From: Sipunculus nudus
Lineage: Eukaryota; Annelida; Sipuncula; Golfingiida; Sipunculidae
DNA: 64,000 nucleotides
Assembly (NCBI GenBank): GCA_026874595.1
Contig: CM049314.1
Location: 36,811,229 to 36,875,228, forward strand
Direction of reading: 5' to 3'
Positions 11,221 to 51,166 of the stretch are shown piece after piece. Under the pieces are notes generated by a model, which had not been told where the DNA came from, searched no databases, and saw nothing but the letters and a program-made list of their open reading frames with translations. The stretch's first letter is position 1; the number at the start of each line of letters is the position of its first letter. The translations under genes and the position numbers were made by a program.

Positions 11221-12922
11221 CTAATTTCCCCAAATATCAAAACATGATTTCCTTTTGTCATCGTTCATCTTTTTCTTTCCAAGAAAATCATTTCTGTATT
11301 TCTCGAATAGCTCGTAGTCAACATGTGCCACTTTCTCCAATAGGTCTGCTTTCTTGCGAACATCTTCCAACGCCTTGACACGGTCCTCCCATCCTGGGTG
11401 TGTTTCTTTCTTCTCAGATGCAATCAGTCGGTCAACATACTCAACAGCTCCCAGTGGATCTTGCTGGAATGCTATTTCTTCTAGTCGTTTCAGACTTTTG
11501 TAGGTGTTAGCCAACAAATGGAACACACATTCCTCAATAAGGAGGAACTCCTCTTTGTGCTTCTTGATCACTTGTTCCACATTTAGTTTCTTTCCGCAGG
11601 CCTCGATGTATCGCTTCAGTAGATCAGCGTATGTTTCCCTCTCCTTTTCTTCGTAGTGTTCGTACCTGTATGAGTTGTTAAAGTGGTCATTCCAAATACA
11701 CTTGCCCGGGCACTTAGTGCAGGTACCGTTTCGTATTGCCGAGCAACGTATTTTGTCTTGATCGTTTGCATATTTACATGGATAGTGGCATGTAAACATA
11801 CAGACTACACAATTTGTAACAAATTCGTTAAATATGTCGATTTTTCGAATTTTATGATGTAGAATTTCATATTCGAAGTTCTCGTTTGCTTTTATATCGC
11901 TTTCGCATTCTTCAAGAGTAAGTTGTTTCTTTCGTAGTTGTTCACGTTTACGACAGCCACGTTGGATGTTAAGTTGCAAATCCTCCAAAGCACTCTCAAG
12001 TCGCTTCCTTTCTTCTAAAACTTCTTTCGTGAGGGAAACGCTCTTTGGCCGTGACATTTCGAGGGAGGAAAACAAAGCTTTCATACTTTGGCAACCACGT
12101 TCCCAGAAATCTTTGTTATCATCGTAGCTTGTCCTTTTGCTCTCACCAGATGTGCCAGGGAAAAATTCCCTTGTACTTTTTGAATTCTTTGCAAACAGTG
12201 GTGCATTGCTGAAAGTGAAGATTTTACTCTTACAAAAGAGACCTTCAGCCTTAAAAGTATCAATGACATCAGGGTACTGTTTGTCTGCAAAAGTAACAAG
12301 CAGCATGATGTTTTCAGCAATGTCCTTGCCAAATATTGACAAAATGGATTCATAAACGAACTTCTGTGTGGTTGTTAACTCAGCACGAGACGCCGAAGTA
12401 ACAAAGCCAATGCCGTCAATGTGATCCACATGGTGCTTGTCTGAATCAGCAAAATACTCTCTTATCTGGTGAAGAATAAGTTTGTTCTTTTCAATATTCT
12501 TTGTGCCTTCAAATTCGGGAGTGTCAACTATTGTCACTGTCCATTCAAGCTTCATCCCTTCCTGGACATGGATAGTGTAAGATGTTACCACCTGTGTGTT
12601 GCTTTCAGTTTTGCCTGGAACAGATATCATCTCAAAACGGTAGTCATCTGACCAGTTTACCTGTAGTATATTATTCATCATGAAATTGATAAGCGTACTT
12701 TTGCCTGCCCCATTTGGCCCCAACGACCATGAAAACAACGTGTCGTTTACCTTGGGATCCTTCCTCACCAAATTTATACATTTGATATTTACCTGTCGTA
12801 TGGAGCTGTGGTTGATTAAGGCAAACCCTGTAAACAGCCGGTGGGCCATCCGAGGTCTTTTGTGCCTCTCCTATAAGGCTCTTGATCATCTTGTTCTTTT
12901 GTTCTTTGACCTTTTCAAGTTT
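11221..12922 (-). CDS. AIG1/GIMAP-like P-loop GTPase, terminal exon (frame broken in the P-loop)
   Basis: The exon starts after an acceptor (TGATTTGCAG, AG at 12924-12923) and ends at the stop codon at 11221-11223. Its first ~67 codons (KLEKVKEQKNK... to the P-loop) are in one frame. The remaining ~500 are in another, because a GGGG run at 12718-12721 seems one base too long. Counted in the downstream 542-codon frame: P-loop GPNGAGKST (44-52), G3-like DTPEF (109-113), G4-like TFAD (186-189), coiled coil (about 270-320), and a Cys/His block (C347, C350, C354, H355, C358, C369, C377, C380, C384, H389) like a zinc-binding module, then a second helical region (about 395-520). AIG1-type GTPases assemble on membranes and are expanded in bivalve immunity. 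This protein's role is inferred. Indel error, polymorphism or a new pseudogene are all possible. Confidence 0.8.
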
Positions 12923-13682
12923 CTGCAAATCAGTCAGTGAGAGAGAGAGCAAATATTAGAACTACATGCAGCTTAATAAAGTGAATCATATTTCTATAGG
13001 TTAGCATTGATATGAAGGATAGCCATCTCCAGTTTCAACCAAATTAAATATAAACCGATGATCTGTTGGTTTAAAAGATCGCTTGGTTTAACTTGACAGT
13101 TCTGGCTACTAGATTTGTGAGATCCCATACATGGTTGCGTTGAAATAATACAGTGTACCAGGCTTTAACTCTCCCAGGACTTGTTTCATTTTTCCTGAAT
13201 ATCTCTTCTGTTCTTTTGTAACCTGCCGATTAAGGGAACTTGGATGTCCAGACAACTCGTACTTAATCTAAATAACTTCTAAATTAACTCTGCAAGTATG
13301 AACTTATCTCGAAATAGCCAGTAATGTAATGGAATCTATTTATCATATACGAAATGTACATACATCTAAATGAACTGAATCAAATTTGTATAGGCTAGTA
13401 GTGATATTATAGATAGACATCTGCAATTTCAAACACATGGATATAAAATAATGATCTGTTGGTCTTAATGGTCGCTTATGAAAAACTGGACAGTTCTGGC
13501 TATTTGTTTTGTGATATCCTATACATGGTTGTGTTGTCACAATGCTAACAAGACAAAGAGTAAAATACAATCGGGAAGAGAATATGTGAGACATATATCA
13601 GAATCGTTTTCGAGTTTTTTCTTTTGTTTCCTCGTAAGATTTCTTTCACGCTGCAATATTTTGCTGACAGAGACTCACGAAC

Positions 13683-13754
13683 CTTTTCAGGTTTTGCCTG
13701 GTCTGCCCTAGGTTGGACCGCTTCTCTTTGTAATTTCAGGGGTTTCTTTTCTTC
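13683..13754 (-). CDS. Array exon 1 (nearest the GTPase exon)
   Basis: 72 nt, phase 0, flanked by acceptor CTGTAG and donor GTTCGT on the - strand. It encodes 24 residues beginning EEKKPLKLQRE and ending AKPEK. It is the most diverged of the type-A exons. Its end would splice in frame onto KLEKVKEQK at 12922. Confidence 0.65.
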
Positions 13755-14930
13755 CTACAGAATAGATGGAGAGCAGATATTAATAGTATATACAGCTAAA
13801 CATATGAAACACCGTGGTAAAGCTTTGTGTGTTGAGAGCATAAGTAGCGACAATAATGGAAGCCTTCGGTTTTGAAAACAAATGAACTAAATATCTATGG
13901 GGCCCAACAGTAGAAACATATCAGTAGACGTTTTTGAGCATTTTACTTATAAGATCCCTTAAACTGTAGGGTTTCTTCACTATGCATTATTAAATAATAA
14001 TACACAATCATGTAAAATAATATTAATGATAGATTACAAAAAGGATCATCATTTTTGTTTGGAAACTAGTTTTTATTAGAACACGCGACAAAGCAAATTT
14101 ATTATTATCTTTAAAGATCAAAGCAAATCATCTTCAGGGGCCTATACATCAGAGGGAAATAAAAAATTGCAAGTGTATAAATCTTAACATATTAATCAAT
14201 TCCATCACTACTGTAAGAAGCATGGTAGGCCTTGTTAATGCAGATTTTCAAATCACAATACGGAGACTGAGAGGCGTATTAACTGTTCAACTCGAATAGA
14301 AGCCGAAGTATATGGTAAACGGTTTTAACTCTGAGGCCTTGTTTAATGTTTTCCTGAAGATGTCTTCCTATCTGTTGGAACCTGCCAATTTAAGGGTCGT
14401 TAAACACACTAATGTCTACATGACTTTGAATTAATATTATCACACCTTAGACGTATACAATCCTGAGTTTAATATTTTTATTGAACCTATATTAAATCTG
14501 CCGTGCATGCTACGTTAACCACGATAAGGTGAATTTACGCTTCCGTTTCGAGGGTGGCATCTGACCTTTAAAATCCTAATTTTGGCATATCTGAGCTAAC
14601 TCGATTCAAATGGTATGGACTCGTAATGAACACTTTAAGCATGTTTAAAATCTTTGGATCTCGACAAATCTTGTCTAAAATAATTGGGATGTCTAAACAA
14701 CCAATGATTCAATGGTCTAAACGGTCGCATATAAATACCTTTACAGTTCAGGTTATTTGCGTTAAGAGATCCGATACATGGATGTGTTGTCACTATGTAT
14801 ACAATACAAATGTAACAATACAATCCGTAAGAGAATATGCAAGACATATAGGAGAATCATTTCGGGCTTTTTTTACTCCTCGTAAGTTTTCTTGCACGCT
14901 GCTATATTTTGCGGACAGAGACTAACGAAC

Positions 14931-15002
14931 CTGTTTAGGTTTCGCCGGGCTTTCCGCGGGCTTGGGCGGTTCTCCTTGTGGTTTCTGGGTATTCTTTTCC
15001 TC
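14931..15002 (-). CDS. Array exon 2 (type A)
   Basis: 72 nt, acceptor CTGTAG, donor GTTCGT. The peptide begins EEKNTQKPQGEPPKP and ends AKPKQ: rich in Pro, Lys, Glu and Ala, with no hydrophobic core, so probably a disordered linker. Confidence 0.65.
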
Positions 15003-16362
15003 CTACAGAACAGATTGATTGCAGATATCAAAAGTATGTACATCTAAACATATGAATCAACGTGGTAAAACTTATGTGTATTGAGAGCTTAAGTAGCGAC
15101 ATTAATGAGAGCCTTCGGTTTTGAAAACAAATAAACTAAAGCTCTATGGGGCCAAACAGTAGATATCATATCCGTTGACATTTATGAGCATTTTACGTAA
15201 AGTATCGGTTAAATTGTAGTTTTTTCACTAGGCATTATGATAAATAATACACTATCATATAAAATAATATTTAAGATGGTTTACAAGAAGGATAATCATT
15301 ATTTGTTTGGAAACTAGTTTTAATTTGAACACTGGACAAAGCAAATTAATTATTATCTTTAAAGATCAAAGCAAATCATCTTCAGGGGCCTATACATCAG
15401 AAGGAAATAAAAAATTACAAGTGTATAAATTTTAACATATTAATCAATTCCACAACTACTGTAAGAAGCATTTTGGGCTTTGTTAATGCAGATTTTCAAA
15501 TCACAATACGGAGACTGAGTGGCGTATTAACTGTTCAACTCTAATAGAAGCCGAAGAATATGGTTTCAACTCTGAGGCCTTGTTTAATGTTTTCCTGAAG
15601 ATGCCTTCCTATCTGTTGGAACCTGCCAATTTAAGGGTCTTTAAACAAACTAATATCTACATGACTTTGAATTAATATTATCACACCTTAGACGTATGCA
15701 AACCTGAGCATATTATTTATATTGAACTAAATTAAATCTTCCATGCACGATACGTTAACCGCGATAAGATGAATAACGCTGCCGTTTCAAGGGTGGCATC
15801 TGACCTTTAAAATCCTAAATTCGGCATACTGAGCTAACTCGTTTCAAATGGTATGGACTCGTAATGAACATTTTAAGCATGTTTAAAATCTTTGGATTTC
15901 GACAAATTTTGTCTAAAAAAATTAGGATGTCTAAACACCTCGTACTTTTTCTCAATAAATTCGTAACTAACTCCGCAAGCAAATAGTTTTCTTTGATCAA
16001 CCGTTAATTTAAAGGAATCATTTTGTCAAATACTAAATGTAAATACAATTAAATCAATTGAATCAAATGTGTACAGGATAGCACTGATGTTTAGAATAGC
16101 CAATTCCAGTTTCAAACACTTGTATATTGAACTAATGATCCAATGGTCTAAACGGTTGCATAAGAATACCTTTACAGTTCAGGTTATTTGCGTTAAGAGA
16201 TCCGATACATGGTTGTGTTGTCACTATGTATACAAGACAAATGTAACAATACAATCCGGAAAAGAATATTCAAGACATATAGGAGAATCATTTCGGGCTT
16301 TTTTTAATTCCTCGTAAGTTTTCTTGCACGCTGCTATATTTTGCGGACAGAGACTAACGAAC

Positions 16363-16434
16363 CTGTTTAGGTTTTGCCGGGCCTTCCGCGGGCTTGGGCG
16401 GTTCTCTTTGTGATTTCTTTATATTCTTTTCCTC
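16363..16434 (-). CDS. Array exon 3 (type A)
   Basis: 72 nt with intact acceptor and donor. The peptide begins EEKNIKKSQREPPKP and ends AKPKQ. Compared with exon 2 it has several replacements and no indel or stop. Confidence 0.65.
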
Positions 16435-17604
16435 CTACAGAACAGATTGAGTGCAGTAGTATGTACATCTAAATATATAAATCAACGTGGTAAAATTTAT
16501 GTGTATTCAGAGCTTAAGAAGCGACATTAATGGAAGCCTTCGGTTTTGAAAACAAATGAAATAAAGCTCTATGGGGCCACACAGTAGATATCATATTTGT
16601 TGACATTTATGAGCATTTTACATAAAGTATCAGTTAAAATGTAGTTTTTTTTCACTAGGCATTATGATAAATAATACACTATCATATAAAATAATATTTA
16701 AGATGGTTTGCAAGAAGGGTAATCATTTCTTGTTTGGAAACTAGTTTAATTTGAACACTGGACAAAGCAAAATTATTATTATCATTAAAGATCAAATCAA
16801 ATCATCTTTAGGGGCCTAAACATCAGAGAGAAATAAAAAATTACAAGTGTACAAATCTTAACATATTAATCAATTCCACAACTACTGTAAGAAGCATGGT
16901 AGGCCTTGTTAATGCAGATTTTTAAATCACAATACGGAGACATAGAGGCGTATTAACTGTTCAACTCTAATAGAAGACAAAGTGTATGGTAATCGGTTTT
17001 AACTCTGAGGCCTTGTTTAATGTTTTCCTGAAGATGCCTTCCTATCTGTTGGAACCTGCCAATTTAAGGGTCTTTAAACACACTAATGTCTACATGATTT
17101 TTGAATTAATATTATCACACCTTAGACGTATGCAATCCTGAGCTTATTATTTATATTGAACCTAAATTAAATCAGCCGTGCACGATACGTTAACAACGAT
17201 AAGATGAATAACGCTTCTGTTTCGAGGGTGGCACCTGACCCCTAAAATCCTAAATTCGGCATATCTGAGCTAACTCGATTCAAATGGTATGGACTCGTAA
17301 TGAACACTTTAAGCATGTTTAAAATCTTTGGATCTCGACAAATCTTGTCTAAAATAATTGGGATGTCTAAACAACCAATGATCCAATGGTCTAAACGGTA
17401 GCATATGAATACCTTTTACAGTTCAGGTTATTTGCGTTAAGAGATCCGATACATGGTTGTGTTGTCACTATGTATACAAGACAAATGTAACAATAAAATC
17501 CGTAAAAGAATATGCAAGACATGTAGGAGAATCATTTCGGGCTTTTTTTATTCCTTGTAAGTTTTCTTGCACGCTGCTATAATTGCGGACAGAGACTAAC
17601 GAAC

Positions 17605-17675
17605 CTGTTTAGGTTTTCCGGGCCTTCCGCGGGCTTGGGCGGTTCTCCTTGTGGTTTCTGGGTATTTTTTTCCTC
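17605..17675 (-). pseudogene. Array exon 4 (type A, one base short)
   Basis: 71 nt: the text TTTTCCGGGCC (+ strand, about 17614) lacks the G present in the other copies (TTTTGCCGGGCC). The acceptor is CTATAG rather than CTGTAG; both are usable. Splicing it in would shift the frame, so it must be skipped, an error, or a disabled copy. Confidence 0.6.
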
Positions 17676-18851
17676 CTATAGAACAGATTGAGTGCAGATG
17701 TCAAAAGTATGTACATCTAAACATATGAATCAACGTGGTAAAACTTGTGTGTATAGAGAGCTTAAGTAGCGACATTAATGGAAGCCTTCGGTTTTGAAAA
17801 CAAATAAACTAAAGCTCTATGGGGCCAAACAGTAGATATCATATTTGTTGACATTTATGAGCATTTTACGTAAAGTATCGGTTAAATTGTAGTTTTTTTC
17901 ACTAGGCATTATGATAAATAATACACTATCATATAAAATAATATTTAAGATGGTTTGTAAGAAGGATAATCATTTCTTGTTTGGAAACTAGTTTAATTTG
18001 AACACAGGACAAAGCAAAATTATTATTATCTTTAAAGATCAAATCAAATCATCTTCAGGGGCCTAAACATCAGAGAGAAATAAAAAATTACAAGTGTACA
18101 AATCTTAACATATTAATCAATTCCACAACTACTGTAAGAAGCATGGTAGGCCTTGTTAATGCAGATTTTTAAATCACAATACGGAGACATAGAGGCGTAT
18201 TAACTGTTCAACTCTAATAGAAGACAAAGTGTATGGTAATCGGTTTTAACTCTGAGGCCTTGTTTAATGTTTTCCTGAAGATGCCTTCCAAACTGTTGGA
18301 ACCTGCCAATTTAAGGGTCTTTAAACACACTAATGTCTACATGATTTTGAATTAATATTATCACACTTTAGACGTATGCAATCCTGAGCTTATTATTTAT
18401 ATTGAAACTAAATTAAATCAGCCGTGCACGATACGTTAACAACGATAAGATGAATAACGCTTCCGTTTCGAGGGTGGCATCTGACCTTTAAAATCCTAAA
18501 TTCGGCATATCTGAGCTAACTCGATTCAAATGGTATGGATTCGTAATGAACACTTTAAGCATGTTTAAAATCTTTGGATCTCGACAAATTTTGTCTAAAA
18601 AAAATTGGATGTCTAAACAACCAATGATCCAATGGTGTAAACGGTCGCATGTGAATACCTTTACAGTTCAGGTTATTTGCGTTAAGAGATCCGATACATG
18701 GTTGTGTTGTCACTATGTATACAAGACAAATGTAACAATACGATCCGTAAAAGAATATGCAAGACATATAGGAGAATCATTTCGGGCTTTTTTTGATTCC
18801 TTGTAAGTTTTCTTGCACGCTGCTATATTTTGCGGACAGAGACTAACGAAC

Positions 18852-18923
18852 CTGTTTAGGTGTTGCCGGGCCTTCCGCGGGCTTGGGCGGTTCTCCTTGT
18901 GGTTTCTGGGTATTTTTTTCCTC
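18852..18923 (-). CDS. Array exon 5 (type A)
   Basis: 72 nt with good splice sites. It begins EEKNTQKPQGEPPKP and ends ATPKQ. It is the last type-A exon; units to the right are type B. Confidence 0.65.
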
Positions 18924-20436
18924 CTACAGAACAGATTGAGTGCAGATGTCAAAAGTATGTACATCTAAACATATGAATCAACGTGGTTAAACTTATGTGT
19001 ATTGAGAGCTTAAGTAGCGACATTAATGGAAGCCTTCGGATTGAAAATTAAGAAGCGACACTAATTGAAGCTTCGGTTTTGAAAATAAATGAACAACAGA
19101 TCTATGGGGCCCAACAGTAGACATCACATCAGTTGACATTAATGAGCATTATACTTATTGAATCAGTTAAATTGTAGTTTTGTTCACTAGGCATTATGAA
19201 ATAATCATACACAATCATGAAAAATAATATTTCAGATAGTTTACAAGAAGGGTAATCATTTTTTGTTTGGAAACTAGTTCACAGGACAAAGCATATTTAA
19301 AGACATTATTATTCTTAAAAGATCAAAGCAAATCATCTTCAGGGGCCTGTACATTAGAGGAATATATAAAAAATTGCAAGTGTATAAATCTCAACATATT
19401 GAACAATCCTACAATCGCTGAAAGAGCATAGTAGGCCTAGTTCAAGCTTATGTTCATAGCACAATACGGAGACTGAGAGGCGTGTTAAATAGTCAACTCT
19501 AATAGAAGCCGAAGAATATGGTAATCAATTTCAACTCTTAGGCCTTGTTTAATGTTTCCCTGAAGAAGTCTTTCGATCTGTTGGATCCTGCCGATTTAGG
19601 GGTCTTTAAACAAACTAACGTCTACATGACTTTGAATAATTATTATCACACATTTGACGTATGCAATCCTGAGCTTTTTATTTATATTGTACCTAAAATA
19701 AATGTGTCTTAAATGATACGCTAACCATGATAAGGTGAATAACGCTTCCCAGTCGAGGGTGGCACATGACCTATGCAATCCTGAACTTTTTATTTATATT
19801 GAACCTAAAATAAATGCGTCTTAAATGATACACTAACCATGATAAGGTGAATAACGCTTCCCAGTCGAGGGTGGCATATGACCTATGCAATCCAAAATTC
19901 GGGAAAGTTTGGCTAACTCGTTTCAAATTGTATGAACTCGTACTGAATACTTTAAGCATGTTTAAAATCTTTGATCTCCAAAATTTTGTTTAAAATAATT
20001 TGGATGTCTAAACAACTTGTCCTTAATCTCCATAAATTCGAAACTAAGTCTACAAGCATGAAGTTTTCTTGGATCAAACGTTAATGGTATGGAAGAAATT
20101 TATCAAATACTAAATGTACTTACACCTAAATAAACTGAATCAAATGTGAATAGGTTAGCAGTTGTATTAAGGATAGCCATCTTCAGTTTTAAACAGGAGT
20201 TTAAAAGCTAATGATGCGTCGATCTGAACGGTCGCGTATGAATACCCTGACAGTTCTGGTTATTTGCGTTGTGAGATCCGATACATGGTTGTATTGTCAT
20301 CTGTTTAGATAACAAATGTAACAATACAATTTGGAAAAGAATAGGCCAGACATATATGAGAATCGTTCCGGGCTTTTTTTATTCCTCGAACGATTTCTTG
20401 CACGATGCTATATTTTGCGAGCAGAGACTAACGAAC

Positions 20437-20508
20437 CTTATCAGATGTTGCCAGGCTTGCCGAGGGCCGGAGCGCTTCTCCTTGTGGATCCGGTGATTTC
20501 CTTTCCTT
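20437..20508 (-). CDS. Array exon 6 (type B)
   Basis: 72 nt, donor GTTCGT. The peptide begins KERKSPDPQGEALRPSAS and ends ATSDK. Type B differs from type A in half its residues but keeps the same length and phase. Confidence 0.65.
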
Positions 20509-21884
20509 CTACAGAACAGATTGAGAGCAATTGTTAAAAGTATTTACATCTTAACATATGAGTCAACGTGGTAAAGCTTACGTGTATTGAAAATTTAAGA
20601 AGCGACACGAATGGAAGCCTTCGGTTTTGAAAATAATGAACAACAGATCTATTGGGTCCAACAGTAGACATCACATCAATTGACATTAATGAGCATTTTA
20701 CTTATTGAATCAGTTAAATTGTAGTTTTGTTCACTAGGCATTATAAAATGATAATACACAATCATGAAAAATTATATTTCAGATATTTTACAAGAAGGGT
20801 AATCATTCTTTTGTTTGGAAACTAGTTTTAACTAGAACACTGGACAAAGCATATTTAAAGACATTATTATTCTTAAAAGATCAAAGCAAATCATCTTCAG
20901 GGGCCTATACATTAGAGGGGTATAAAAAAATTTCAAGTGTATAAATCTCAACATATTAAACAATCCTACAATCCCTGAAACAGCACAGTAGGCCTAGTTC
21001 AAGAATATGATCTTAGCACAATACGGAGTCTGAGAGGCGTGTTAAATATTCAACTTAATAGAAGCCGAAGAATATGGTAATCAATTTCAACTCTTAGGCC
21101 TTGTTTAATGTTTCCCTGAAGAAGTCTTTCGATCTGTTGGATCCTGCCGATTTAGGGGTCTTTAAACAAACTAACGTCTACATGACTTTGAGTAATTATT
21201 ATCACACATTTGACGTATGCAATCCTGAGCTTTTAATTTATTTTGTACCTAAAATAAATGCGTCTTAAATGATACGCTAACCATAATAAAGTGAATAACG
21301 CTTCCCAGTCGAGGGTGGCATATGACTTATGCAATCCAAAATTCGGGAAAGTTTGGCTAACTCCTTTCAAATTGTATGAACTCGTATTGAATACTTTAAG
21401 CATGTTTAAAATCTTTGATCTCGACAAATATTGTTTAAAATAATTGGGATGTCTAAACAACTTGTCCTTAATCTCCATCAATTCGAAACTAACTCTGCAA
21501 GCATGAAGTTTTCTTGGATCAACCGTTAATGGTATGGAAGAAATTTATCAAATACTAAATGTACATACACCTAAATAAACTGAATCAAATGTGAATAGGT
21601 TAGCAGTTGTATTAAGGATAGCCATCTTCAGTTTTAAACAGGAGTTTATAAGCTAATGATGCGTCGATCTGAACGGTCGCGTATGAATACCCTGACAGTT
21701 CTGGATATTTGCGTTGTGAGATCCGATATATGGTTGTATAGTCATCTGTTTACATAACAAATGTTCCAATACAATATGGAAAAGAATTGGCAAGACATAT
21801 ATGAGAATCGTTCCGGGCTTTTATTTGGATTCCTCGAACGATTTCTTGTACGATGATATATTTTGCGAGCAGAGACTAACAAAC

Positions 21885-21956
21885 CTTATCAGATATTGCC
21901 AGGCTTGCCGCGGGCCGGAGCGCTTCTCCATGTGGATCCGGGGTTTTTTTTTCCTT
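21885..21956 (-). CDS. Array exon 7 (type B)
   Basis: 72 nt, donor GTTTGT, acceptor CTGTAG. It begins KEKKTPDPHGEALRPAAS and ends AISDK. Confidence 0.65.
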
Positions 21957-23439
21957 CTACAGAACAGATTGAGAGCAATGGTTAAAAGTATTTACATCTT
22001 AACATATGAATCAACGTGGTAAAGCTTACGTGTATTGAAAATTTAAGAAGCGACACTAATGGAAGCCTTCGGTTTTGAAAATAATGAACAACAGATCCTT
22101 TGGGCCCAACAGTAGACATCACATCAGTTGACATTAATGAGCATTTTACTTATTGAATCAGTTAAATTGTAGTTTTGTTCACTAGGAATCATGAAATAAT
22201 AATACCGGTCATGAAAAATAATATTTCAGATATTTTACAATAAGGGTAATCATTTTTTTTGTTTGGAAACTAGTTTTAACTAGAACACTGGACAAAGCAC
22301 ATTTAAAGACATTATTATTCTTAACAGGTCATAGCAAATCATCATTAGGGGCCTATACATTAGAGGGATATAATAAATGCAAGTGTATAAATCTCAACAT
22401 ATTGAACAATCCTCCAATCCCTGAAAGAGCATCGTAGGCCTAGTTCAAGCATATGTTCATAGCACAATACGGAGACTGAGAGGCGTGTTAAATATTCAAC
22501 TCTAATAGAAGCCGAAGAATATGGTAATCAATTTCAACTCTTAGGCCTTGTTTAATGTTTCCCTGAAGAAGTCTTTCGATCTGTTGGATCCTGCCGATTT
22601 AGGGGTCTTTAAACAAACTAACGTCTACATGACTTTGAGTAATTATTATCACACATTTGACGTACGGAATCCTGAGCTTTTTATTTATATTGTACCTAAA
22701 GTAAATGCGTCTTAAATGATACGCTTACCATGATCAGGTGAATAACGCTTCCCAGTCGAGGGTGGCATATGACCCATGCAATTCTGAGCTTATAATTTAT
22801 ATTGAACCTAAAATAAATGCGTCTCAAATGATACGCTAACCATGATAAGGTGAATAACGCTTCCCAGTCGAGGGTGGCATATGACCTATGCAATCCAAAA
22901 TTCGGGAAAGTTTGGCTAACTCGTTTCAAATTGTATGAACTCGTTCTGAATACTTTAAGCATGTTTAAAATCTTTGATCTCGACAAATTTTGTTCAAAAT
23001 AATTGGGATGTCTAAACAACTTGTCCTTAATCTCCATCAATTCGAAACTAACTCCTCAAGCATGAAGTTTTCTTGGATCAACCGTTAATGGTATGGAAGA
23101 AATTTATCAAATACTAAATGTACATACACCTAAATAAACTGAATCAAATGTGAATAGGTTAGCAGTTGTATTAAGGATAGCCATCTTCAGTTTGAAACAG
23201 GATTTTAAAAGCTAATGATGCGTCGATCTGAACGGTCGCGTATGAATACCCTGACAGTTCTGGTTATTTGCGTTGTGGGATCCGATACATGGTTGTATTG
23301 TCATCTGTTTACAAAACAATTAACAATACAATTTGGAAAAGAATAGGCAAGACATATATAAGAATCGTTCCGGGCTTTTTTTTATTCCTCGAACGATATC
23401 TTGCACGATGCTATATTTTGCGAGCAGAGACTAACGAAC

Positions 23440-23511
23440 CTTATCAGATATTGCCAGGCTTGCCGAGGGCGGGAGCGCTTCTCCTTGTGGATCCGGTGGT
23501 TTCCTTTCCTT
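23440..23511 (-). CDS. Array exon 8 (type B)
   Basis: 72 nt, donor GTTCGT. The acceptor reads CGGTAG, the only copy with this change. It begins KERKPPDPQGEALPPSAS and ends AISDK. Confidence 0.6.
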
Positions 23512-24929
23512 CTACCGAACAGATTGAGAGCAATTGTTAAAAGTATTTACATCTTAACATATGAATCAACGTGGTAAAGCTTACCTGTATTGAAAATTTA
23601 AGAAGCGACACGAATGGAACCCTTCGGTTTTGAAAATAATGAACAACAGATCTATTGGGCCAAACAGTAGACTTCACATCAGTTGACATTAATGAGCATT
23701 TTACTTATTGAATCAGTTAAATTGTAGTTTTGTTCACTAGGCATTATGAAATGATAATACACAATCATGAAAAATTATATATCAGATATTTTAGAAGAAG
23801 GGTAATCATTTTTTTGTTTGGAAACTAGTTTTGACAAGAACACTGGATAAAGCACATTTAAAGACATTATTATTCTTAAAAGATCAAAGCAAATCATCTT
23901 CAGGGGCCTATAATTATTCTTAAAAGATCAAAGCAAATCATCTTCAGGGGCCTATACATTAGATGGATATAATAATTGTAAGTGTATAAATCTCAACATA
24001 TTGAAGAATCCTCCAATCACTGAAACAGCATAGTAGGCCTAGTTCAAGAATATATTCATAGCACAATACGGAGACTGAGAGGCGTGTTAAATATTCAACT
24101 CTAATAGAAGCCGAAGAATATTGTAATCAATTTCAACTCTTAGGCCTTGTTTAATGTTTCCCTAAAGAAGTCTTTCGATCTGTTGGATCCTGCCGATTTA
24201 GGGGTCTTTAAACAAACTAACGTCTACATGACTTTGAATAATTATTATCACACTTTTGACGTATGCAATCCTGAGCTTTTATTTATATTGAACCTAAATT
24301 GAATCCGTCTTTAATGATACGCTAAAAATGATAAGGTGAATAACGCTTCCCAGTCGAGGGTGGCATATGACCTATGCAATCCAAAATTCGGGAAAGTTTG
24401 GCTAACTCGTTTCAAATTGTATGAACTCGTACTGAACACTTTAAGCATGTTTAAAATCTTTGATCTCGACAGATTTTGTTTAAAATAATTGGAATGTCTA
24501 AACAACTTGTCCTTAATCTCCATCAATTCGAAACTAACTCTGCAAGCATGAAGTTTTCTAAGATCAACAGTTAATGGTATGGAAGAAATTTATCAAATAC
24601 TAAATGTTCATACACCTAAATAAACTGAATCAAATGTGAATAGGTTAGCAGTTGTATGAAGGATAGCCATCTTCAGTTTTAAACAGGAGTTTATAAGCTA
24701 ATGATGCGTCGATCTGAACGGTCGCGTATGAATACCCTGACAATTCTGGTTATTTGCGTTGTGAGATCCAATACATGGTTGTATTGTCATCTGTTTACAT
24801 AACAAATGTTACAATACAATTTAGAAAAGAATAAGCAAGACATATATGAGAATCGTTCCGGGCTTTTTTTTTTATTCCTAGAACGATTTCTTGCACGATG
24901 CTATATTTTGCGAGCAGAGACTAACAAAC

Positions 24930-25001
24930 CTTATCAGATATTGCCAGGCTTGCCGCGGGCCGGAGCGCTTCTCCATGTGGATCCGGGGGTTTCTTTTCCT
25001 T
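24930..25001 (-). CDS. Array exon 9 (type B)
   Basis: 72 nt, donor GTTTGT. It begins KEKKPPDPHGEALRPAAS. It is identical base for base to exon 11, as part of a recent two-unit duplication. Confidence 0.65.
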
Positions 25002-26475
25002 CTACAGAACAGATTGAGAGCAATTGTTAAAAGTATTTACATCTTAACATATGAATCAACGTGGTAAAGCTTATGTGTATTGGAAATTTAAGAAGCGACA
25101 CTAATGGAAGCCTTCGGTTTTGAAAATAAATGAACACCAGATCTATGGGGTCCAACAGTAGACATCACATCAGTTGACATTAATGAGCATTTTACTTATT
25201 GGATCAGTTTTATTCACTAGGCATGATGAAAAATAATACACAATCATGAAAAATAATATTTAAGAGAGTTTACAAGAAGGGTAATCATTTCTTTGTTTGA
25301 AAACTAGTTTTAACTAGAACACTGGACAAAGCACATTTAAATACTATATTATTCTTAAAAGATCTTAGCAAATCTTCTTCAGGGGCCTATACATCAGAGG
25401 GATATAAAAAATTGCAAGTGTATAAATCTCAACATACTGAACAATCCTACAATCCCTGAAAGAGCATAGTAAGCCTAGTTCAAGCATATGTTCATAGCAC
25501 AATACGGAGACTGAGAGGCGTGTTAAATATTCAACTCTAATAGAATCTGAAGAATATGGTAATCAATTTCAACTCTTAGGCCTTGTTTTATGTTTCCCTG
25601 AAGAAGTCTTTCGATCTGTTGGATCCTGCCGATTTAGGGGTCTTTAAACAAACTAACGTCTACATGACTTTGAATAATTATTATCAAACATTTGACGTAT
25701 GCGATCCTGAGCTTTTTATTTATATTGAACCTAAATTGAATTCGTCTTTAATGATACGCTAACCATGATAAGTTGAATAACGCTTTCCGGTCAAGGGTGG
25801 CATATGACCTATGCAATCCTGAGCTTTTTATTTATATTGAACCTAAAATAAATGCGTCTTAAATGATACGCTAACCATGATAGGGTGAATAACGCTTCCC
25901 AGTCGGTGGCATATGACCTATGCAATCCAAAATTCGGGAAAGTTTGGCTAACCCCTTTAAATTGTATGAACTCGTACTGAACACTTTAAGCAGTTTTAAA
26001 ATCTTTGATCTCGACAGTTTTTGTTTAAAATAATTGGGATGTCTAAACAACTTGCCCTTAATCTCATTCAATTACGAAACTAACTCTGCAAGCATGAAGA
26101 TTTCTTGGATCAACCGTTAATGGTATGGAAGAAATTTATCAAATACTAAATGTACATACACCTAAATAAACTGAATCAAATGTGAATAGGTTAGCAGTTC
26201 TATTAAGAATAACCATCTTCAGTTTTAAACAGGATTTTAAAAGCTAATAATGCGTCGATCTGAACGGTCGCGTATGAATACCCTGACAGATCTGGTTATT
26301 TGCGTTGTGAGATCCGATACATGGTTGTATTGTCATCTGTTTAGATAACAAATGTTACAATACAATTTGGAATATATTAGGCAGGATATATATGAGAATC
26401 GTTCCGGGCTTTTTCTTTGATTCCTCGAACGATATCTTGGACGATGCTATATTTTGCGAGCAGAGACTAACAAAC

Positions 26476-26547
26476 CTTATCAGATATTGCCAGGCTTGCC
26501 GAGGGCCGGAGCGCTTCTCCTTGTGGATCCGGGGGTTTCTTTTCCTT
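26476..26547 (-). CDS. Array exon 10 (type B)
   Basis: 72 nt, donor GTTTGT, acceptor CTGTAG. It begins KEKKPPDPQGEALRPSAS and ends AISDK. Confidence 0.65.
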
Positions 26548-27922
26548 CTACAGAACAGATTGAGAGCAATTGTTAAAAGTATTTACATCTTAACATATGA
26601 ATCAACGTGGTAAAGCTTATGTGTATTGAAAATTTAAGAAGCGAGACTAATGGAAGCCTTCGGTTTTGAAAATAAATGAACAACAGATCTATGGGGCCCA
26701 ACAGTAGACATCACATCAGTTGACATTAATGAGCATTTTACTTATTGAATCAGTTAAATTGTTGTTTTGTTCACTAGGCATTATGAAATGATAATACACA
26801 AACATGAAAAATAATATTTCAGATAGTTTACAAGAAGGGTAATCATCTTTATGTTTGGAAACTAGTTTTAACTAGAACACTGGACAAAGCACATTTAAAG
26901 ACACTATTATTCTTAAAAGATCAAAGCAAGTAATCTTCAGGGGCCTATACATTAGGAGATATACAAAAATTGCAAGTGTATAAATATCAACATATTGAAC
27001 AATCCTACAATCGCTGAAAGAGCATAGTAGGCCTAGTTCAAGAATATATTCATAGCACAATACGGAGACTGAGAGGCGTGTTAAATATTCAACTCTAATA
27101 GAAGCCGAAGAATATTGTAATCAATTTCAACTCTTAGGCCTTGTTTAATGTTTCCCTGAAGAAGTCTTTCGATCTGTTGGATCCTGCCGATTTAGGGGTC
27201 TTTAAACAAACTAACGTCTACATGACTTTGAATAATTATTATCACACTTTTGACGTATGCAATTCTGAGCTTTTATTTATATTGAACCTAAATTGAATCC
27301 GTCTTTAATGATACGCTAAAAATGATAAGGTGAATAACGCTTCCCAGTCGAGGGTGGCATATGACCTATGCAATCCAAAATTCGGGAAAGTTTGGCTAAC
27401 TCGTTTCAAATTGTATGAACTCGTACTGAACACTTTAAGCATGTTTAAAATCTTTGATCTCGACAGATTTTGTTTAAAATAATTGGAATGTCTAAACAAC
27501 TTGTCCTTAATCTCCATCAATTCGAAACTAACTCTGCAAGCATGAAGTTTTCTAAGATCAACAGTTAATGGTATGGAAGAAATTTATCAAATACTAAATG
27601 TTCATACACCTAAATAAACTGAATCAAATGTGAATAGGTTAGCAGTTGTATGAAGGATAGCCATCTTCAGTTTTAAACAGGAGTTTATAAGCTAATGATG
27701 CGTCGATCTGAACGGTCGCGTATGAATACCCTGACAATTCTGGTTATTTGCGTTGTGAGATCCAATACATGGTTGTATTGTCATCTGTTTACATAACAAA
27801 TGTTACAATACAATTTAGAAAAGAATAAGCAAGACATATATGAGAATCGTTCCGGGCTTTTTTTTTATTCCTAGAACGATTTCTTGCACGATGCTATATT
27901 TTGCGAGCAGAGACTAACAAAC

Positions 27923-27994
27923 CTTATCAGATATTGCCAGGCTTGCCGCGGGCCGGAGCGCTTCTCCATGTGGATCCGGGGGTTTCTTTTCCTT
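27923..27994 (-). CDS. Array exon 11 (type B)
   Basis: 72 nt with the same sequence as exon 9. Flanks from about 24.1-25.7 kb and 27.1-28.7 kb are also nearly identical at a spacing of about 2.99 kb. Confidence 0.65.
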
Positions 27995-29206
27995 CTACAG
28001 AATAGATTGAGAGCAATTGTTAAAAGTATTTACATCTTAACATATGAATCAACGTGGTAAAGCTTATGTGTATTGGAAATTTAAGAAGCGAGACTAATGG
28101 AAGCCTTCGGTTTTGAAAATAAATGAACACCAGATCTATGGGGTCCAACAGTAGACATCACATCAGTTGACATTAATGAGCATTTTACTTATTGGATCAG
28201 TTTTATTCACTAGGCATGATGAAAAATAATACACAATCATGAAAAATAATATTTAAGAGAGTTTACAAGAAGGGTAATCATTTCTTTGTTTGAAAACTAG
28301 TTTTAACTAGAACACTGGACAAAGCACATTTAAATACTATATTATTCTTAAAAGATCTTAGCAAATCTTCTTCAGGGGCCTATACATCAGAGGGATATAA
28401 AAAATTGCAAGTGTATAAATCTCAACATACTGAACAATCCTACAATCCCTGAAAGAGCATAGTAAGCCTAGTTCAAGCATATGTTCATAGCACAATACGG
28501 AGACTGAGAGCCGTGTTTAATATTCAACTCTAATAGAATCTGAAGAATATGGTAATCAATTTCAACTCTTAGGCCTTGTTTAATGTTTCCCTGAAGAAGT
28601 CTTTCGATCTGTTGGATCCTGCCGATTTAGGGGTCTTTAAACAAACTAACGTCTACATGACTTTGAATAATTATTATCAAACATTTGACGTATGCGATCC
28701 TGAGCTTTTTATTTATATTGAACCTAAATTAAATCCCTCTTAAATGATACGCTAAAAATGATAAGGTGAATAACGCTTCCCAGTCGAGGGTGGCATATGA
28801 CCTATGCAATCCAAAATTTAGGATAGTTTGGCTAACTTGTTTCAAATTGTATGAACTGGAACTGAACACTTTAAGCATGTTTAAAATCTTTGATCTCGAC
28901 AAATTTTGTTTAAAATAATTGGGATGTCGAAACAACTTGTCCTTAATCTCAATAAATTCAAAACTAGCTCTGCAAGCATGAAGTTTCCTTGGATCAACCG
29001 TTAATGGTATGGAAGAAATTTATCAAATACTAAATGCATATACACCTAAATAAACTGAATCAAATGTGAATAGGTTAGCAGTTGTATTAAGGATAGCCAT
29101 CTTCAGTTTTAAACAGGTGCTTAAAAGCTAATGATGCGTTGGTCTGAACGGTCGCGTATGAATACCCTGACAGTTCTGGTTATTTGCGTTGCAGAGACTA
29201 ACGAAC

Positions 29207-29278
29207 CTTATCAGATATTGCCAGGCTTGCCGCGGGCCGGAGCGCTTCTCCTTGTGGATCCGGGGGTTTCTTTTCCTC
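29207..29278 (-). CDS. Array exon 12 (most upstream copy seen)
   Basis: 72 nt, donor GTTCGT. It begins EEKKPPDPQGEALRPAAS, so it has a type-A start (EEK) on a type-B body. About 130 bp of the 3'-flanking intron found in other units is deleted just left of the donor (the text jumps at 29190). No exon further upstream was recognised, so the gene's 5' end is not seen. Confidence 0.6.
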
Positions 29279-29639
29279 CTACAGAACAGATTGAGAGCAA
29301 ATATTAAAAGTATATACATCTAAACATATGAATCAACGTGGAAAAGCTTATGTGTATAGAGAGCTTAGGTAGCGATATTAATGGAAGCCTTCAAGTTTGA
29401 AAACAAATGAACTAATAATCTATAGGGCCAAATAGTAGATATCAAATCAATTGCCATTTGTGAGAATTTTACTGATGGGATCAGTTAGATTGTACGTTTT
29501 TACACTAGGCATTATAAAATAATACTCAATCATGTAAAATAATATTTAAGAAACTTTCAAGAAGTACAACCATTTATTTTGTTTGGAAACCAATTTTCAT
29601 TAGAATTTTGTGCAAAGCAATTAACGTGTATAAATCTAA

Positions 29640-30700
29640 AACATATTAATCAATTACACAACCACAGAAAGAGAAAAAAATGCTCGATCGCATTGATTCT
29701 TTTTCAGGAAAAAGTGCCGAAGAACTATATATGAGAACAATCCCCATCATTTATTACACATAGTTTTGCACATTCTAATGCTTTTGTAATGTGTTATTTG
29801 ACCAAAAAGCTTCCATTAGACTTGATTTTTGTTCTTACAAAAGCCAAGAAGTAGCCATATGAGTTGTCCAATGTAGTATGCATATTTCATTATTTTATAA
29901 TAGTCTGCATATTTCAACTATATGAATCTGGTTATATCCCTCTCCAGTGTAAATTTTTTAGTCTTATTACGTGACCTGTATTCTTCATTAATAACCTAGA
30001 AAGAAAAAAAAGCAAAAAGTTTGCTTAAAATTAGCTGGTTACACTAAATGACAATGTCTGTTACACAATAATGAGAAAAATGAAAAAACAGACTATACGG
30101 AATTAAATTCGATGTTTGAATTTCTCCATAAGGAAATTTTAATGTGAAGTAAACGGCGCTCATCTTCTTTGTTCACTGTTGATTAAACTTTGCTCAAACT
30201 GATAAAAAAACAGAAATATACCCCACATTGTTATTCTTGAGTTTATTTTAAAGTAAATATAACGTATATTCTTGTAATCTTGACGTTTACTTTTCTGTTT
30301 TACAGGGAATTTTAATGTATTTAACTTATAATTTTGAAAAAACAGCTCTTAAACTTGTCTAAACATAAGATATACGCTTAACTCTAATCTTCACGTTTAC
30401 CTGAAAAGTATATCCAAAGTAAATATGTGTACACTTTACATTAAAGCACCTTTAATCAAATGAAATTTTAAGTCCATGTAAACGCCTCAAATATTTTTTT
30501 TTTATTTTATTACTAATTATGTACACTTAAATTAATGTAAAGATGATCTTAATGCGTCAAAGTTATCCGTCTGAGTAAACTATAAATAAATCTAAAATTA
30601 AATGTCCAAAAACATGATGTTTAATTTTTTCGTGAAATTTCACGTTCAATTGACAGAAAACTCCTAGTATACATTAAACTTCAAGTTTTACAATATTTAA
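29640..30700. other. AT-rich sequence upstream of the exon array
   Basis: Repeat similarity to the array fades after about 29.6 kb. No first exon or promoter for the GTPase gene could be picked out. Confidence 0.4.
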
Positions 30701-35304: not shown

Positions 35305-36089
35305 CATTACAGACAAGATCTTTCTTGTTTTTCTTCTTTCTTTTCCATTTGGGAATCACATTACCATAACCACGCATAGAGAAACATGAAAATATTTTTT
35401 TTTACTTAAAACGCCATATTTTTATTCTATGTGTGTGCCTACTCAATTAAAATAACATAAAATAAATTTGAGTTAACAAACATAACAATTGCCAGTAGTT
35501 GCCTTGTATAAGTGTTAAGAGAATTTTTGGGGGGCACGCCCCTTTGCGCCCCCCCCCCCCCACCCTATGAATACACCCCTGACTTCTATATTAATTGTTT
35601 TAAGCTTTGAACCACGTGCATAACAGAAGGCATTCGGTGACAGCGGCCGCCGGTTATATTCCTTTAACGAACAGGATGGAATCTGTGGGAATTTTTTAGT
35701 AAGATATATTCTGATGATTATTATCTAAATAACAGGATTATTCAATAATAAAATAATTTTAGAAATAAAGTATAAAATTGTTCAATATGCCGATACAAAT
35801 CAAGTGGTCATTAACCTGGGCTAGTCTTGCTTAATATCGCTCGCGACACTTGCAACAAATTTTGATGTTGTTAACAATGTTTTGAAGGGTGCCGTGATGG
35901 CATGTTTTGCGTCGGCAATCATCAGCTGATAATCCACTTCGTCTTGAAATAAGCATATAGCGCTTACAGACTTCTTCCTTTTTATTATATTGGCCCAGCT
36001 TGACAAGCTGTGCCCTAGAGTGATCACCGTGTCAGTCCGTCCTTCCATACTTCCGTCCTTCCGTAAGTGACACACTCTTTCGCGTGTGA

Positions 36090-37220
36090 TATATCAACTA
36101 CAACATACTTCAGCTTTCCCTAATTCACAAGGATGATTGGTATATGAGGGCTCAAGACCTACTGAATAACAGACCTGTCGGAATTCCAATATGGCCGCCA
36201 CAGCCAAATCGCTGATTTTTCTTTCGTGCGCGATAACTCAACAACAACATACTTCAGCTTTCCCAAATTGTTAGGGATGATTGGTATATGAGGGCTCAAG
36301 ACCTATTGACTTATAGACCTGTCGGAATTCCAATATGGCCGTCACAGCCCAATTGCTGATTTTTTTCGCTCGAGATAACTCATTAACAACATACTTCAAC
36401 GTTCCCAAATTTACAGGGATCATTGGTACATTTAAGAGCTCTATACCTATTAATTACAGACCTTCCAGAATTCCAATATGGCTGCCTTAGTCCTATCGCT
36501 GATTTTCTTTTGCGCGCGATAACTCAACAACAACATACTTCAGCTTTCCCGAATTCACAGGGATGATTGGTACATATGAGGGCTCGAGATCTTTACAATT
36601 ACACACCTGTCGGAATTCCAATATGGCCGCCACAGCCCAATCGCATAGTTACTTTCGCTCGTGATAACTCAACAACAACATACTTAAACTTTCCCATATT
36701 CACAGGGATGACTGGTACCTATAAGGGTACTTTCTCTATCGAATAACAGATCTGTCTGAATTCCAATATGGACTCTAGATCAAAATGGGTGATTTTCTTT
36801 CGCGGCCGATTTCTCAACAAGAACATGCTGGATCTTTATCTTTTTCTCAGGGATCATTGGTGCCTATGCAGACTCAATCCCTTTCAAGTAAAAGACCTAT
36901 CAGAATCCCAATATGGCTACCAGAGCACAATTAGGAATTTTCTTTTAAGCGCGATATCTCAACAAGAACATGCATCTTTCTAATTTACACAAAGATGATT
37001 GGTACCTATAAGGCTCCATCTCTATCAAATTGTAGGCCTGTCGGAATTTCAATAGGCATCCAGAGCACTATTGTTGATTTTATTTCGCACCCGAAATCTC
37101 AACATGAACATGCCTGATCTTTCACAAATTCACCTGGATCATCGGTGCCTATGAGGTGCCTTGTCTTTAGAAATACAGACTTGCTCAAAATCAAATATTG
37201 CCAACAGACTACAGTCGGTG
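36090..37220. repeat. Tandem array of about eight 145-bp units
   Basis: The anchor AACATACTTCAGCTTTCCC or a decayed form occurs near 36101, 36247, 36387, 36529, 36676, 36821, 36965 and 37106. It is followed by GGGATGATTGGTA, CAGACCTGTCGGAATTCCAA and TATGGCCGCCACAGCC. Units on the left are cleaner than those on the right. A non-repeated head with CTTGACAAGCTGTGCCCTAG (about 36000) suggests a larger element. Confidence 0.75.
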
Positions 37221-41541: not shown

Positions 41542-43482
41542 TTATATATAACATATTTTGCCCATGGCCAGCTCCAACTGAGGGAGATCTTGCTTGAGCT
41601 GTCGCCTGTTTTTGTCAGTAACTTGTCCAGACAGATCATTGTCGTGAACCCACAGCTTCTTCAGTGATTTCATGTGTTTTGTAAAATTAACCACTTCTTC
41701 GAGTCCATTGCCGATCTTATTGCTGTGCACACAGATCTGTGTGAGATTTGGACACTGATCGCACTGCATCATAAGCTCTAGGAAGGCATTGGAATCACTT
41801 AACTTGCAAAAATCCATCCTAATAACCTGCAACGCTTTGAGACAGGAGAGACGCTGTGACAGATGTCGTACACTCTGGTCTGTTATGTCATTGTAGGACA
41901 AAACCAACATTTGAAGAGTCACTGGGAGACGGTCCATTAAAAGTGGCCAATCGGGAAAAACGCTCGTCGAGTGGTACAGCCCTCCACAAATACAATATTT
42001 TTATTGGAGGTGGCTGATTATGCAGGACTTGACATAGTGACCGCAGACCTAACGCTAACAGTGAGCCCCACTCAAACTTTAAGTCTGTGAGACGCACCAT
42101 ATTTAAAAGGGCCTGGGTCACGGCTGAATGTGCTGCAGAGTGGAAGCCCCTATCACATGCGGTGAAATGAGTGACATTAGAAAAATCTTCCGAGAAATAT
42201 CGTTCATATAAGCCCACTGAGTAATCAGTATTGAACTCTATGAAAACGTGAGGTGGCAACTTCAGTTTAGCGTTCATGTTATTGGATAGGAATCTGAGCT
42301 GTAACATTGAAAATATTCTAGACTTTTCTTCGGCTGAAACATTGATAACTTCATCAATTTCCTTTCTTATCGCTTCGCAACCAAGCCCGCTAATGAATCT
42401 GTGAACCATTTCATATTCCTGGAAAGCCTTAACTGGGGAGGAAATTTTCATCAGCAACTCCTTTTGTTTTGATGCGCCACAATTTACAATGAAGTAAACC
42501 AAGAAGAATTCCTGGACAGTTTAATGAGGGAAAACAACAATATCTTCACCCTTTATGTTGCTTTCTTTTTCAAAGATGCCCAGCTCCCAAGCAGTCTCTC
42601 CTATTTTGTTAATCATATCTCTGAACATGAACTTTACCTGAAGGTGGTTCTCATTTAGTCCTTCTGTACAAAACTCCCCTATTTGCATGAGAGGTCTGTG
42701 GTATTTATCAAATATATTCTGAGGTAGTGACCTCTCAGAATGTTTCACAACCTTTTTTTCGTAACGTCCACAAACATAATCCACAAATTGTAAAAAGAAA
42801 ACTTTAAGGGAATCAGAGAGATAACCTTTGTGTGTCCAGAGGTTACACATTAGGAGTAAGTTGGCAGGAAGGCGCCTGAGGTGTCATAGTCCATCTGACC
42901 TTTTTATCTTAGCCAGGAGATGGCCCACCTGATTTTATAAACATTCTGGAAGAAATTGTTAATATACAAAGAAACCCCTACAGGGTTAAACCCTTTTAGT
43001 AAAATATGATTGTCAGCAAGTACGGTTTTCTCTCCACGTGTGGGAAATCATAAGAAGGTGAATGCCTAGAAGTAATGAATAGGGTTGATTCTTTGAATAT
43101 TTTTCTATGTGCAATGTTTGTAATATCATAAGAGGTACACTCTGTGTATTCATCATACCCCTCTAAGACAATCAATGTGTCTTTAAGGGATTGCTGGATT
43201 GTACTGTACAACAAGGAGGCGGTTTCAGACTATACACAATATTGATATTCTATGACATCTTGTAGTTTCATACCTTCCTTAAAATATCTTAAAAGAATAA
43301 GAAGAACATATTTAAATTTAGAATACACAGATTCTTCTTGTACTGACACCTCAAATTTCCTGTCCAACCATCTTCTCTTAACCAGACCACTCCACTTTAC
43401 AACCAGCATCGAACCAATGTTGATTTACCAGAACCAGCCGGACCTTGTAGAAACACATACCCTACTTCTATTTCGCCTTCGC
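41542..43482 (-). pseudogene. NACHT-LRR body of an NLR gene, multiply disabled (copy A)
   Basis: The exon opens after acceptor TTTCTCAG (AG at 43484-43483). It reads YVFLQGPAGSGKSTLV: Walker A at about 43446-43417. LIVLEGYDEYTE (Walker B, about 43177-43142) and STLFITSRHSP (sensor 1) follow, then the NACHT-associated helical region (42521-42850 frame), winged-helix-like sequence (41888-42502) and LRRs (LQMLVLSYNDIT, LTQICVHSNKIG, LKKLWVHDNDLSG; 41542-41937). Breaks: a frameshift just after Walker A (about 43410), TAG at 43230-43232, a frameshift near 42935, TGA at 42884-42886, TAA at 42521-42523, and a frameshift near 41985. NLRs are cytosolic NTPase sensors. This copy cannot make one intact protein. 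Confidence 0.85.
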
Positions 43483-50270: not shown

Positions 50271-51166
50271 TTCTATTTATATCCCATCTTCAATACGAAC
50301 TGGTTGCACCTGCATGATGTCTGACTAATCCACGTACAAGTCCAGCTCCAATTTATGGAGATTCTTCTCAAGCTGTTGTGTGATCCTGTTTCCCTACGTA
50401 ACGAGACAACTGTTGCCGCCTATCGTCAGCTTCCTCAATGACGTCATATGTTTTGTTAGCTGAACTAGCTCGATTAATCTGTCACGGAAGTTATTGCTGC
50501 ACACATTGATATCCATGAGTTTGACATACAGCGGAGATTTTTATCAGGCCAAGGCCTCACAAAGATTGCACGACCGCATCTTGATGACCTTCACCTGTTT
50601 GAAGTGAGAGAGACGCTGAGGGAGACGACGCACAGATTCGCTTGTTATGTTATTAATGGACACATCTGGCTTCTGCAGTGTTTCTAGGAGAGAATCCATT
50701 AGCATTGACCAGGAGGCACCAGGTACATCCCAAAGTACAGCCCATTCCATGTCCAATGTGGTGAGTGGTGGGGACTCAGGGGTCAAGGTGTTACTCCCTC
50801 CCAAACGTTAATTCTGTAATACGCATCATATTGTCAATCGCTGGGATCATGAAGGTGTTTGTAATGAAATGATAAACTCCAGTCAGAACGGTGAGATGAG
50901 TGACGCTTGAGCAGTTACCGCACAGGTAATGTTTCTATACCTCCTCTATAACTGTCACTTATCGTTAAAACAACAAGGACTTGCAACTTCAGCCGTTCAG
51001 GTTCTCGGCTGAGAAGCTGAGCTGTAAAGCAGGAATTATTTCAGCTTTGTTGTCCTCTGTGACATTAGTTATTTTTTAATCTCCTCTTTAATCTCCTCCC
51101 CTTCAAGGCCACTGATAAATGTTTGAATATCTTCCGATTCCTCTACCGCTTTGATCGAACTTTATA

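Follow-up and report, generated by a model that had tools for sequence, protein, structure and literature searches.

Tandemly repeated 72-nt segments in Sipunculus nudus are probably coding exons derived from the start of their own gene's GTPase exon

Small exons repeated in tandem are a genomic arrangement with published parallels. In the polymorphic mucins of Schistosoma mansoni (SmPoMuc), the cited account describes units of ∼1 kb built on a 27-bp exon that encodes a 9-residue repeat and occurs in 1 to ∼20 genomic copies; repeat number varies in the transcripts, and the mucin has a signal peptide (PMC2576457). The ROCO GTPases of brown algae are described as carrying tandem 72-bp leucine-rich repeat (LRR) exons of phase 2; the same account reports that they are alternatively spliced, that four sites are under diversifying selection, and that an immune role is a candidate function (PMC11378527). 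For the PEVK region of titin, the cited report gives many short Pro/Glu/Lys-rich exons, exon duplication in evolution, and a per-exon ratio threshold of 0.54 (PMC6469411), and the AIG/GIMAP expansions of molluscs are described with varied extra domains, immune-responsive expression, and mostly one exon per AIG1 domain (PMC7053062). Here, we analyzed a stretch of 64,000 nt from the Sipunculus nudus genome (C9:36811229-36875228 in an assembly of 1.43 Gb and 153 contigs; the window), in which twelve small segments on the minus strand lie in tandem in front of a large exon encoding an AIG1/septin-like GTPase domain, in a gene with kinship to immune-type GTPases. As judged from the DNA, these segments are probably protein-coding exons, duplicated in tandem and derived from the 5′ end of the large GTPase exon of the same gene.

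The closest parallels are only partial. As in SmPoMuc, a small exon is repeated together with its flanking introns, several exon types occur, and exon length is a multiple of three; unlike in the mucins, for which the cited account involves no GTPase, the repeated exon here appears to derive from the gene's own GTPase exon (PMC2576457). With the brown-algal ROCO genes the array shares tandem 72-bp exons in a GTPase gene (PMC11378527), and it differs from what is described for them in its phase 0, in an LRR consensus found in 0/12 exons, and in its GTPase family. Identity with a ROCO LRR array was consequently rejected on the features tested, since the length fits but the phase and the LRR consensus do not. 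The original prediction for this locus, which held that no GTPase with such a linker had been described, has to be qualified to the same extent, as the algal genes do have tandem 72-bp exons, although theirs are LRR exons of phase 2 (PMC11378527). If spliced, the array would work most like these two systems.

All twelve proposed segments are present on the minus strand between 13683 and 29278, each with an AG upstream and GTT[CT]GT downstream. By translation, they fall into types A (n = 7) and B (n = 4), both of which had been proposed, and a third type, C (n = 1), which adjoins the GTPase exon; all three types are real. Counted outward from that exon, the array consists of C1 (13683..13754; EEKKPLKLQREAVQPRADQAKPEK), B1 (14931..15002), B2 (16363..16434), B3 (17605..17675), B4 (18852..18923), A1 (20437..20508), A2 (21885..21956), A3 (23440..23511), A4 (24930..25001), A5 (26476..26547), A6 (27923..27994), and A7 (29207..29278), the most 5′ exon found. 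As anticipated, 11 of the 12 measure 72 nt and are open in one phase, so that they are symmetric and a multiple of three in length; B3 has 71 nt, and its inclusion would shift the frame. Start-to-start spacing is 1241–1585 nt within the array, and 832 nt separate the starts of C1 and the GTPase exon. The latter (11224..12922, minus strand) holds a short Lys/Glu-rich linker, the GTPase domain, and a C-terminal region, and is predicted to open at 12922 in phase 0, continuous with the array exons; the expected in-frame junction with the last of them is thus borne out. The whole array spans 12923..29672 (minus strand), as the similarity of its 5′ flank to the other units stops at ∼29672. Searches of the S. 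nudus genome with exon-plus-flank DNA, in which the best candidates were scored, listed 11 and 8 matches, and because all of these fall inside the array, it shows no sign of being a dispersed repeat. The units of A4 and A6 are 97.5% identical and those of A5 and A7 96.3%, which shows that blocks were duplicated recently, suggests a duplication step of two units, and makes the predicted instability of copy number plausible. The one relative compared has 2 such exons versus the 12 here.

To assess the coding signal, we trained a codon score on eight open frames from canonical paralogues of the gene (described below), with intron triplets of the array itself as background. Frame 0 scored 12.0–17.5 bits and was the best of six frames in 12/12 array exons, all of which lie above the maximum of 11.5 found among 4881 sampled intron 72-mers (mean −15.4), the background having been trained on these same introns. 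The GC content of the array exons is 46–58% versus 34% in the array introns; this explains part of the score gap between exon and intron, not the frame preference within one exon. When we slid a 72-column frame along the aligned introns, 0/1513 positions kept either all 11 A/B copies or 10 of them clear of gaps and stops, and the exon itself is free of both in 10/11; because these positions overlap, they amount to only about twenty independent trials. Both results agree with the constraint on frame and length that had been proposed. Exon borders and phase also agree with those of independent exons in a neighboring gene. A further line of evidence for coding is the scarcity of synonymous changes among the exon types when counted from a majority ancestor, with figures given below. 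Neither stop-freedom nor indel count suffices by itself, and we rejected either one alone as proof of coding. Taken together, however, the evidence makes the coding status of the array exons well supported.

Over 11 exons (B3 left out), the array peptide contains 18% Pro, 17% Lys, 13% Ala, and 12% Glu, and 81% of its residues are disorder promoting. Given this composition, the encoded 24-residue Pro/Lys/Ala/Glu-rich segments are probably disordered, as the original prediction had it. Its description of them as PEVK-like stands for five of the 12 exons (types B and C), which have a per-exon ratio of at least 0.54, and falls for type A (0/7). The array thus shares with titin PEVK short Pro/Glu/Lys-rich exons with duplication, reaching the ratio in only part of its exons, and unlike titin has no muscle protein context (PMC6469411).

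A search of the S. nudus genome with the GTPase protein gave 13 matches, namely the window gene, a neighboring gene, one fragment, and nine other loci, one of which accounts for two matches. All 13 lie on the chromosome-scale contig C9, in clusters at 25.9, 30.7–31.1, 36.7–36.9, and 40.0 Mb. The nine paralogous loci read as SNTX-FN3-GTPase genes without introns; six consist of one open frame of 1265–1302 codons from the N-terminal motif to the end, and three are interrupted. In the two loci scanned against Pfam, Stonustoxin_helical, Thioredoxin_11, fn3, Septin, and AIG1 were above cut-off in both and MACPF_SNTX was once above and once below, while the domain content of the other seven was judged by eye. 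The GTPase domain and C-terminal region of the window gene are homologous to those of the canonical copies, with identity up to 55%. In contrast to the canonical genes, the window gene has no detected SNTX/FN3 part, a changed DxxG motif, and the exon array. We rejected an upstream exon as the supplier of the SNTX/FN3 part, since no match with E ≤ 1 was found in 93.7 kb of contiguous DNA running rightwards from the left end of the window; three short matches with E 0.30–0.87 lie in the 10 kb to its left. Among the titles listed by literature searches, none concerned such an exon array in the SNTX-FN3-GTPase family. Like the AIG/GIMAP expansions described in molluscs, the family consists of expanded AIG1-type GTPases with varied extra domains; unlike them, its canonical copies carry SNTX and FN3, and the AIG1 score of the window gene is below the curated cut-off (PMC7053062).

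The neighboring gene is the closest relative of the window gene. Its GTPase match (C9:36881358-36882827) lies ∼58 kb away with 66% identity, and in a tree of 11 sequences the two genes form one clade with a support of 100/100. Upstream of the neighbor's GTPase exon sit two small phase-0 exons of 144 nt, E1 (C9:36885622-36885765) and E2 (C9:36885021-36885164), whose codon scores are 25.2 and 31.2 bits, respectively. When we searched with the E1–E2 region, the 12 matches comprised only the region itself (one a short inverted piece) and array units.

We then compared these exons with the GTPase exon itself. In an alignment of E1, E2, C1, B1, A7, A4, and the starts of both GTPase exons, the region preceding the acceptor is common to all, as is the end point of the small exon. 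The donor coincides with a codon junction in the linker, on the Val codon of VCL, which in the window reads VYR|VCL; the homologous junction is AAG|GT or AGG|GT in the window and in 4/9 canonical paralogues (L026, L029, L033, and L034). Beyond the donor, the first intron bases still align to coding sequence of the GTPase exon, and the array exons are 72 nt shorter than E2. A second exon start, now vestigial, is present eleven times, once at 28338..28403 on the minus strand (tgatgtatag|GCCCCTGAAGA..) and otherwise near 14100, 15348, 16774, 18021, 19305, 20863, 22311, 23910, 25345, and 26903. Nine of the 11 have a stop at codon 8, which is missing from the 28338..28403 copy and from the one near 25345. 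By eye, these intronic starts resemble E1 of the neighbor. The sequence lying ahead of the GTPase exon (family D19) recurs in the introns as nine further copies. Since E1-like starts and D19 copies both lie in the introns, the amplified block probably began ahead of E1 and ended ahead of the GTPase exon. Three array introns also contain a 112-bp element that is itself tandemly duplicated (19655-19893, 22668-22896, and 25689-25928).

Based on these comparisons, the array probably arose as follows. The starting point would be a canonical, apparently intronless coding region with SNTX-type and FN3 domains, a short linker, and the GTPase. The branch that holds the window gene and its neighbor would have lost the N-terminal domains, and the linker part of the GTPase exon would have been copied in such a way that the copy took its 5′ splice site from a codon junction (Lys or Arg followed by Val, AAG|GTN). 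The product of this copying would be the 144-nt phase-0 exons still present in the neighbor. In the window gene, the exon would have become 72 nt shorter in frame, if the change ran in this direction, and a block of exon, flanking introns, and the second, mostly dead exon start would have grown to 12 copies through unequal exchange, in part two units at a time. Located between the N-terminus and the GTPase, these copies would code for the Pro/Lys/Ala/Glu-rich segments, for which a role in spacing or binding is conceivable. Within this account, the homology, the phase, the coding signal, and the block duplication follow from the data themselves. The segments most likely represent genuine exons, belonging to a derived paralogue that is reduced at its N-terminus and of doubtful present function.

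Observations on splicing, on the GTPase exon, and on divergence among the exons weigh against this reading. With GTTYGT, the array donors have T at +3 and look weak by consensus, and the acceptors look good by eye. Because TAG directly follows the donor hexamer in 11/12 array exons, a missed donor would terminate translation. None of the 12 exons has an in-frame ATG. An upstream exon was not found in a search made by homology only, without ab initio exon prediction. A 5′ exon common to the window and neighbor loci was likewise not found, the upstream matches being low-complexity runs and short matches, several of them inverted, in a comparison of the two loci that also matched at the first array flank. 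Furthermore, the indels in exon columns (1 versus 2.1 expected) are not significantly few, and the chance that three neutral types would all stay stop-free is ∼0.21–0.23, which is not significant either.

On the same side stands the GTPase exon, whose frame from the exon start (..HVVFMVVG) runs out just 5′ of the P-loop (GPNGAGKST..), which is open in another frame; the break lies at approximately 12714..12726 on the minus strand. The DxxG motif reads DTPE in the window gene and the neighbor versus DTPG, as read by eye, in 9/9 other loci; for L032, an automated scan picked out an earlier DTP. The neighbor has DTPE but no frame break, and the branch of the two genes may consist of pseudo-GTPases. 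The AIG1 score of the window gene is 24.3 bits against a Pfam cut-off of 27, compared with 33.1 and 28.7 for the two of nine canonical copies scanned. As the frame is broken, the assembled copy probably no longer makes a complete GTPase, and with the DxxG motif changed as well, the working GTPase that the original prediction placed behind the linker is not encoded by the assembled DNA. The break itself may be that of a recent pseudogene, a polymorphism, or an assembly error. We also considered that the 71-nt B3 and the break might compensate each other; this was rejected, as the shifted frame enters the P-loop frame but meets stops before it.

The frame break and the DTPE change, together with the 71-nt length of B3 and the failure to find a 5′ exon, lend some weight to a competing possibility, which we hold to be a real but lesser one and which overlaps with our own reading: the locus is dead, its exons formerly coded, the gene is now a pseudogene, and the array grows only by unequal exchange. 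Between window and neighbor, the GTPase has a nonsynonymous rate (dN) of 0.22 and a synonymous rate (dS) of 0.46 over 488 codons, and the dN/dS of 0.48 points in the same direction. Against a dead locus, the 497 codons past the break are stop-free although dS to the neighbor is 0.46, so that any decay would be only recent, and 11 of the 12 array exons are still in frame. The open 497 codons at this dS fit selection until recently. For the GTPase, parsimony-polarized counts of synonymous and nonsynonymous changes (8 and 60 in the window gene, 1 and 46 in the neighbor) were set aside as biased, because they are limited to sites conserved in the other paralogues.

The opposite view, that the array is transcribed and functional, we regard as doubtful. 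Here, a codon junction within an immune-type GTPase exon would have turned into a splice donor that 14 small exons in two genes now carry (12 in the window and 2 in the neighbor). The nucleotide-binding domain, which may be that of a pseudo-GTPase, would then be preceded by a disordered arm that varies in length and diversifies quickly, and that is adjusted both through splicing and through copy-number differences between individuals.

Divergence among the exon types bears on a further alternative, which we consider unlikely, namely a variable-exon cassette in which exon types are skipped or chosen as in SmPoMuc or Dscam under selection for peptide diversity. The common length and phase, the three diverged types, and the pairing of good acceptors with weak donors would suit such a cassette. 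Counted from the majority ancestor, types A and B show 20 changes that are nonsynonymous and none that is synonymous (simulated P 0.001–0.003); including C brings the counts to 27 and 3 (P 0.012–0.038, varying with transition bias). The direct A–B comparison gives weaker evidence, as 18 sites differ, corresponding to 17.5/55.5 nonsynonymous and 0.5/16.5 synonymous sites; in view of this count, we dropped a firmer case for positive selection that had rested on 20/56 nonsynonymous sites. For single A and B copies compared pairwise, dN is 0.35–0.64 and dS 0–0.17 (B3 left out). The original prediction had called for a comparison of the exons with intron blocks, and its outcome is mixed: the A–B nonsynonymous rate exceeds the mean intron rate of ∼0.164 (P ∼0.003–0.007; mean of 18 intron blocks with <25% gaps, worked by hand), but it is not above that of the fastest block, 0.243 (P 0.11–0.18), and the indel deficit in the exon is not significant. 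Fisher's test of nonsynonymous versus synonymous changes between A and B gives P ∼0.2. Likewise, type C shows no clear nonsynonymous excess over A or B (dN 0.35–0.44, dS 0.25–0.39, without B3). At 0.289, the A–B divergence of the exon is the highest of the 72-column blocks except for one at 0.355 with 53% gaps, compared with 0.076–0.243 in intron blocks with <25% gaps; we rejected the idea that exon divergence outpaces that of all intron sequence, as divergence within A and within B is average. There are just three effective exon types, and because A4 matches A6 exactly in exon sequence and the remaining A exons are almost the same, the array would offer little peptide diversity. Diversifying selection on the array exons is only suggested, and positive selection is not established.

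Least probable of all is a non-coding tandem repeat, in which partial copies of the GTPase exon start were never spliced and spread in a satellite-like expansion: the alignment of the first intron bases to coding sequence, the weak-looking donors, and the probability of ∼0.22 that three neutral types stay stop-free would agree with it, but it is opposed by the positive codon score in 12/12 exons, by the few synonymous changes among many differences, and by the neighbor's two 144-nt phase-0 exons, which are of the same kind and also have a positive codon score.

Elsewhere in the window, pieces of an NLR-like gene lie at 41545-42883 on the minus strand, where one frame matches LRR_4 in Pfam and two open frames upstream of it resemble the NACHT side by eye only, without a Pfam match. 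LRR-like fragments were seen by eye at 50547-50807 and 59101-59361, also without a Pfam match. A 145-bp unit is repeated in tandem in 7.5 copies at 36076-37156. A segmental duplication makes ∼53000-57830 and 60350-64000 onward near-identical at a distance of ∼7.3 kb, running past the window end (for instance, 55506-56090 and 62847-63431). The assembly also includes bacterial contigs (C60, C61, C62, C66, C72, C74, C75, C89, and C123). COX1 gave nine near-equal matches on eight contigs, with a cbb3-type oxidase recognized by eye on C123, and among GTDB species genomes the best of 80 listed relatives was only ∼58% identical to the copy used for the search. These contigs possibly represent a co-sequenced, undescribed bacterium in several strains.

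For the array, both the likely source, a GTPase exon start with a latent donor, and a plausible intermediate, the two 144-nt exons of the neighbor, lie within ∼64 kb, so the birth of an exon array can be traced in one locus. Should the array be transcribed, it would directly exemplify how an immune-type gene, by copying part of its own coding exon, acquires a linker that varies in length and evolves fast.

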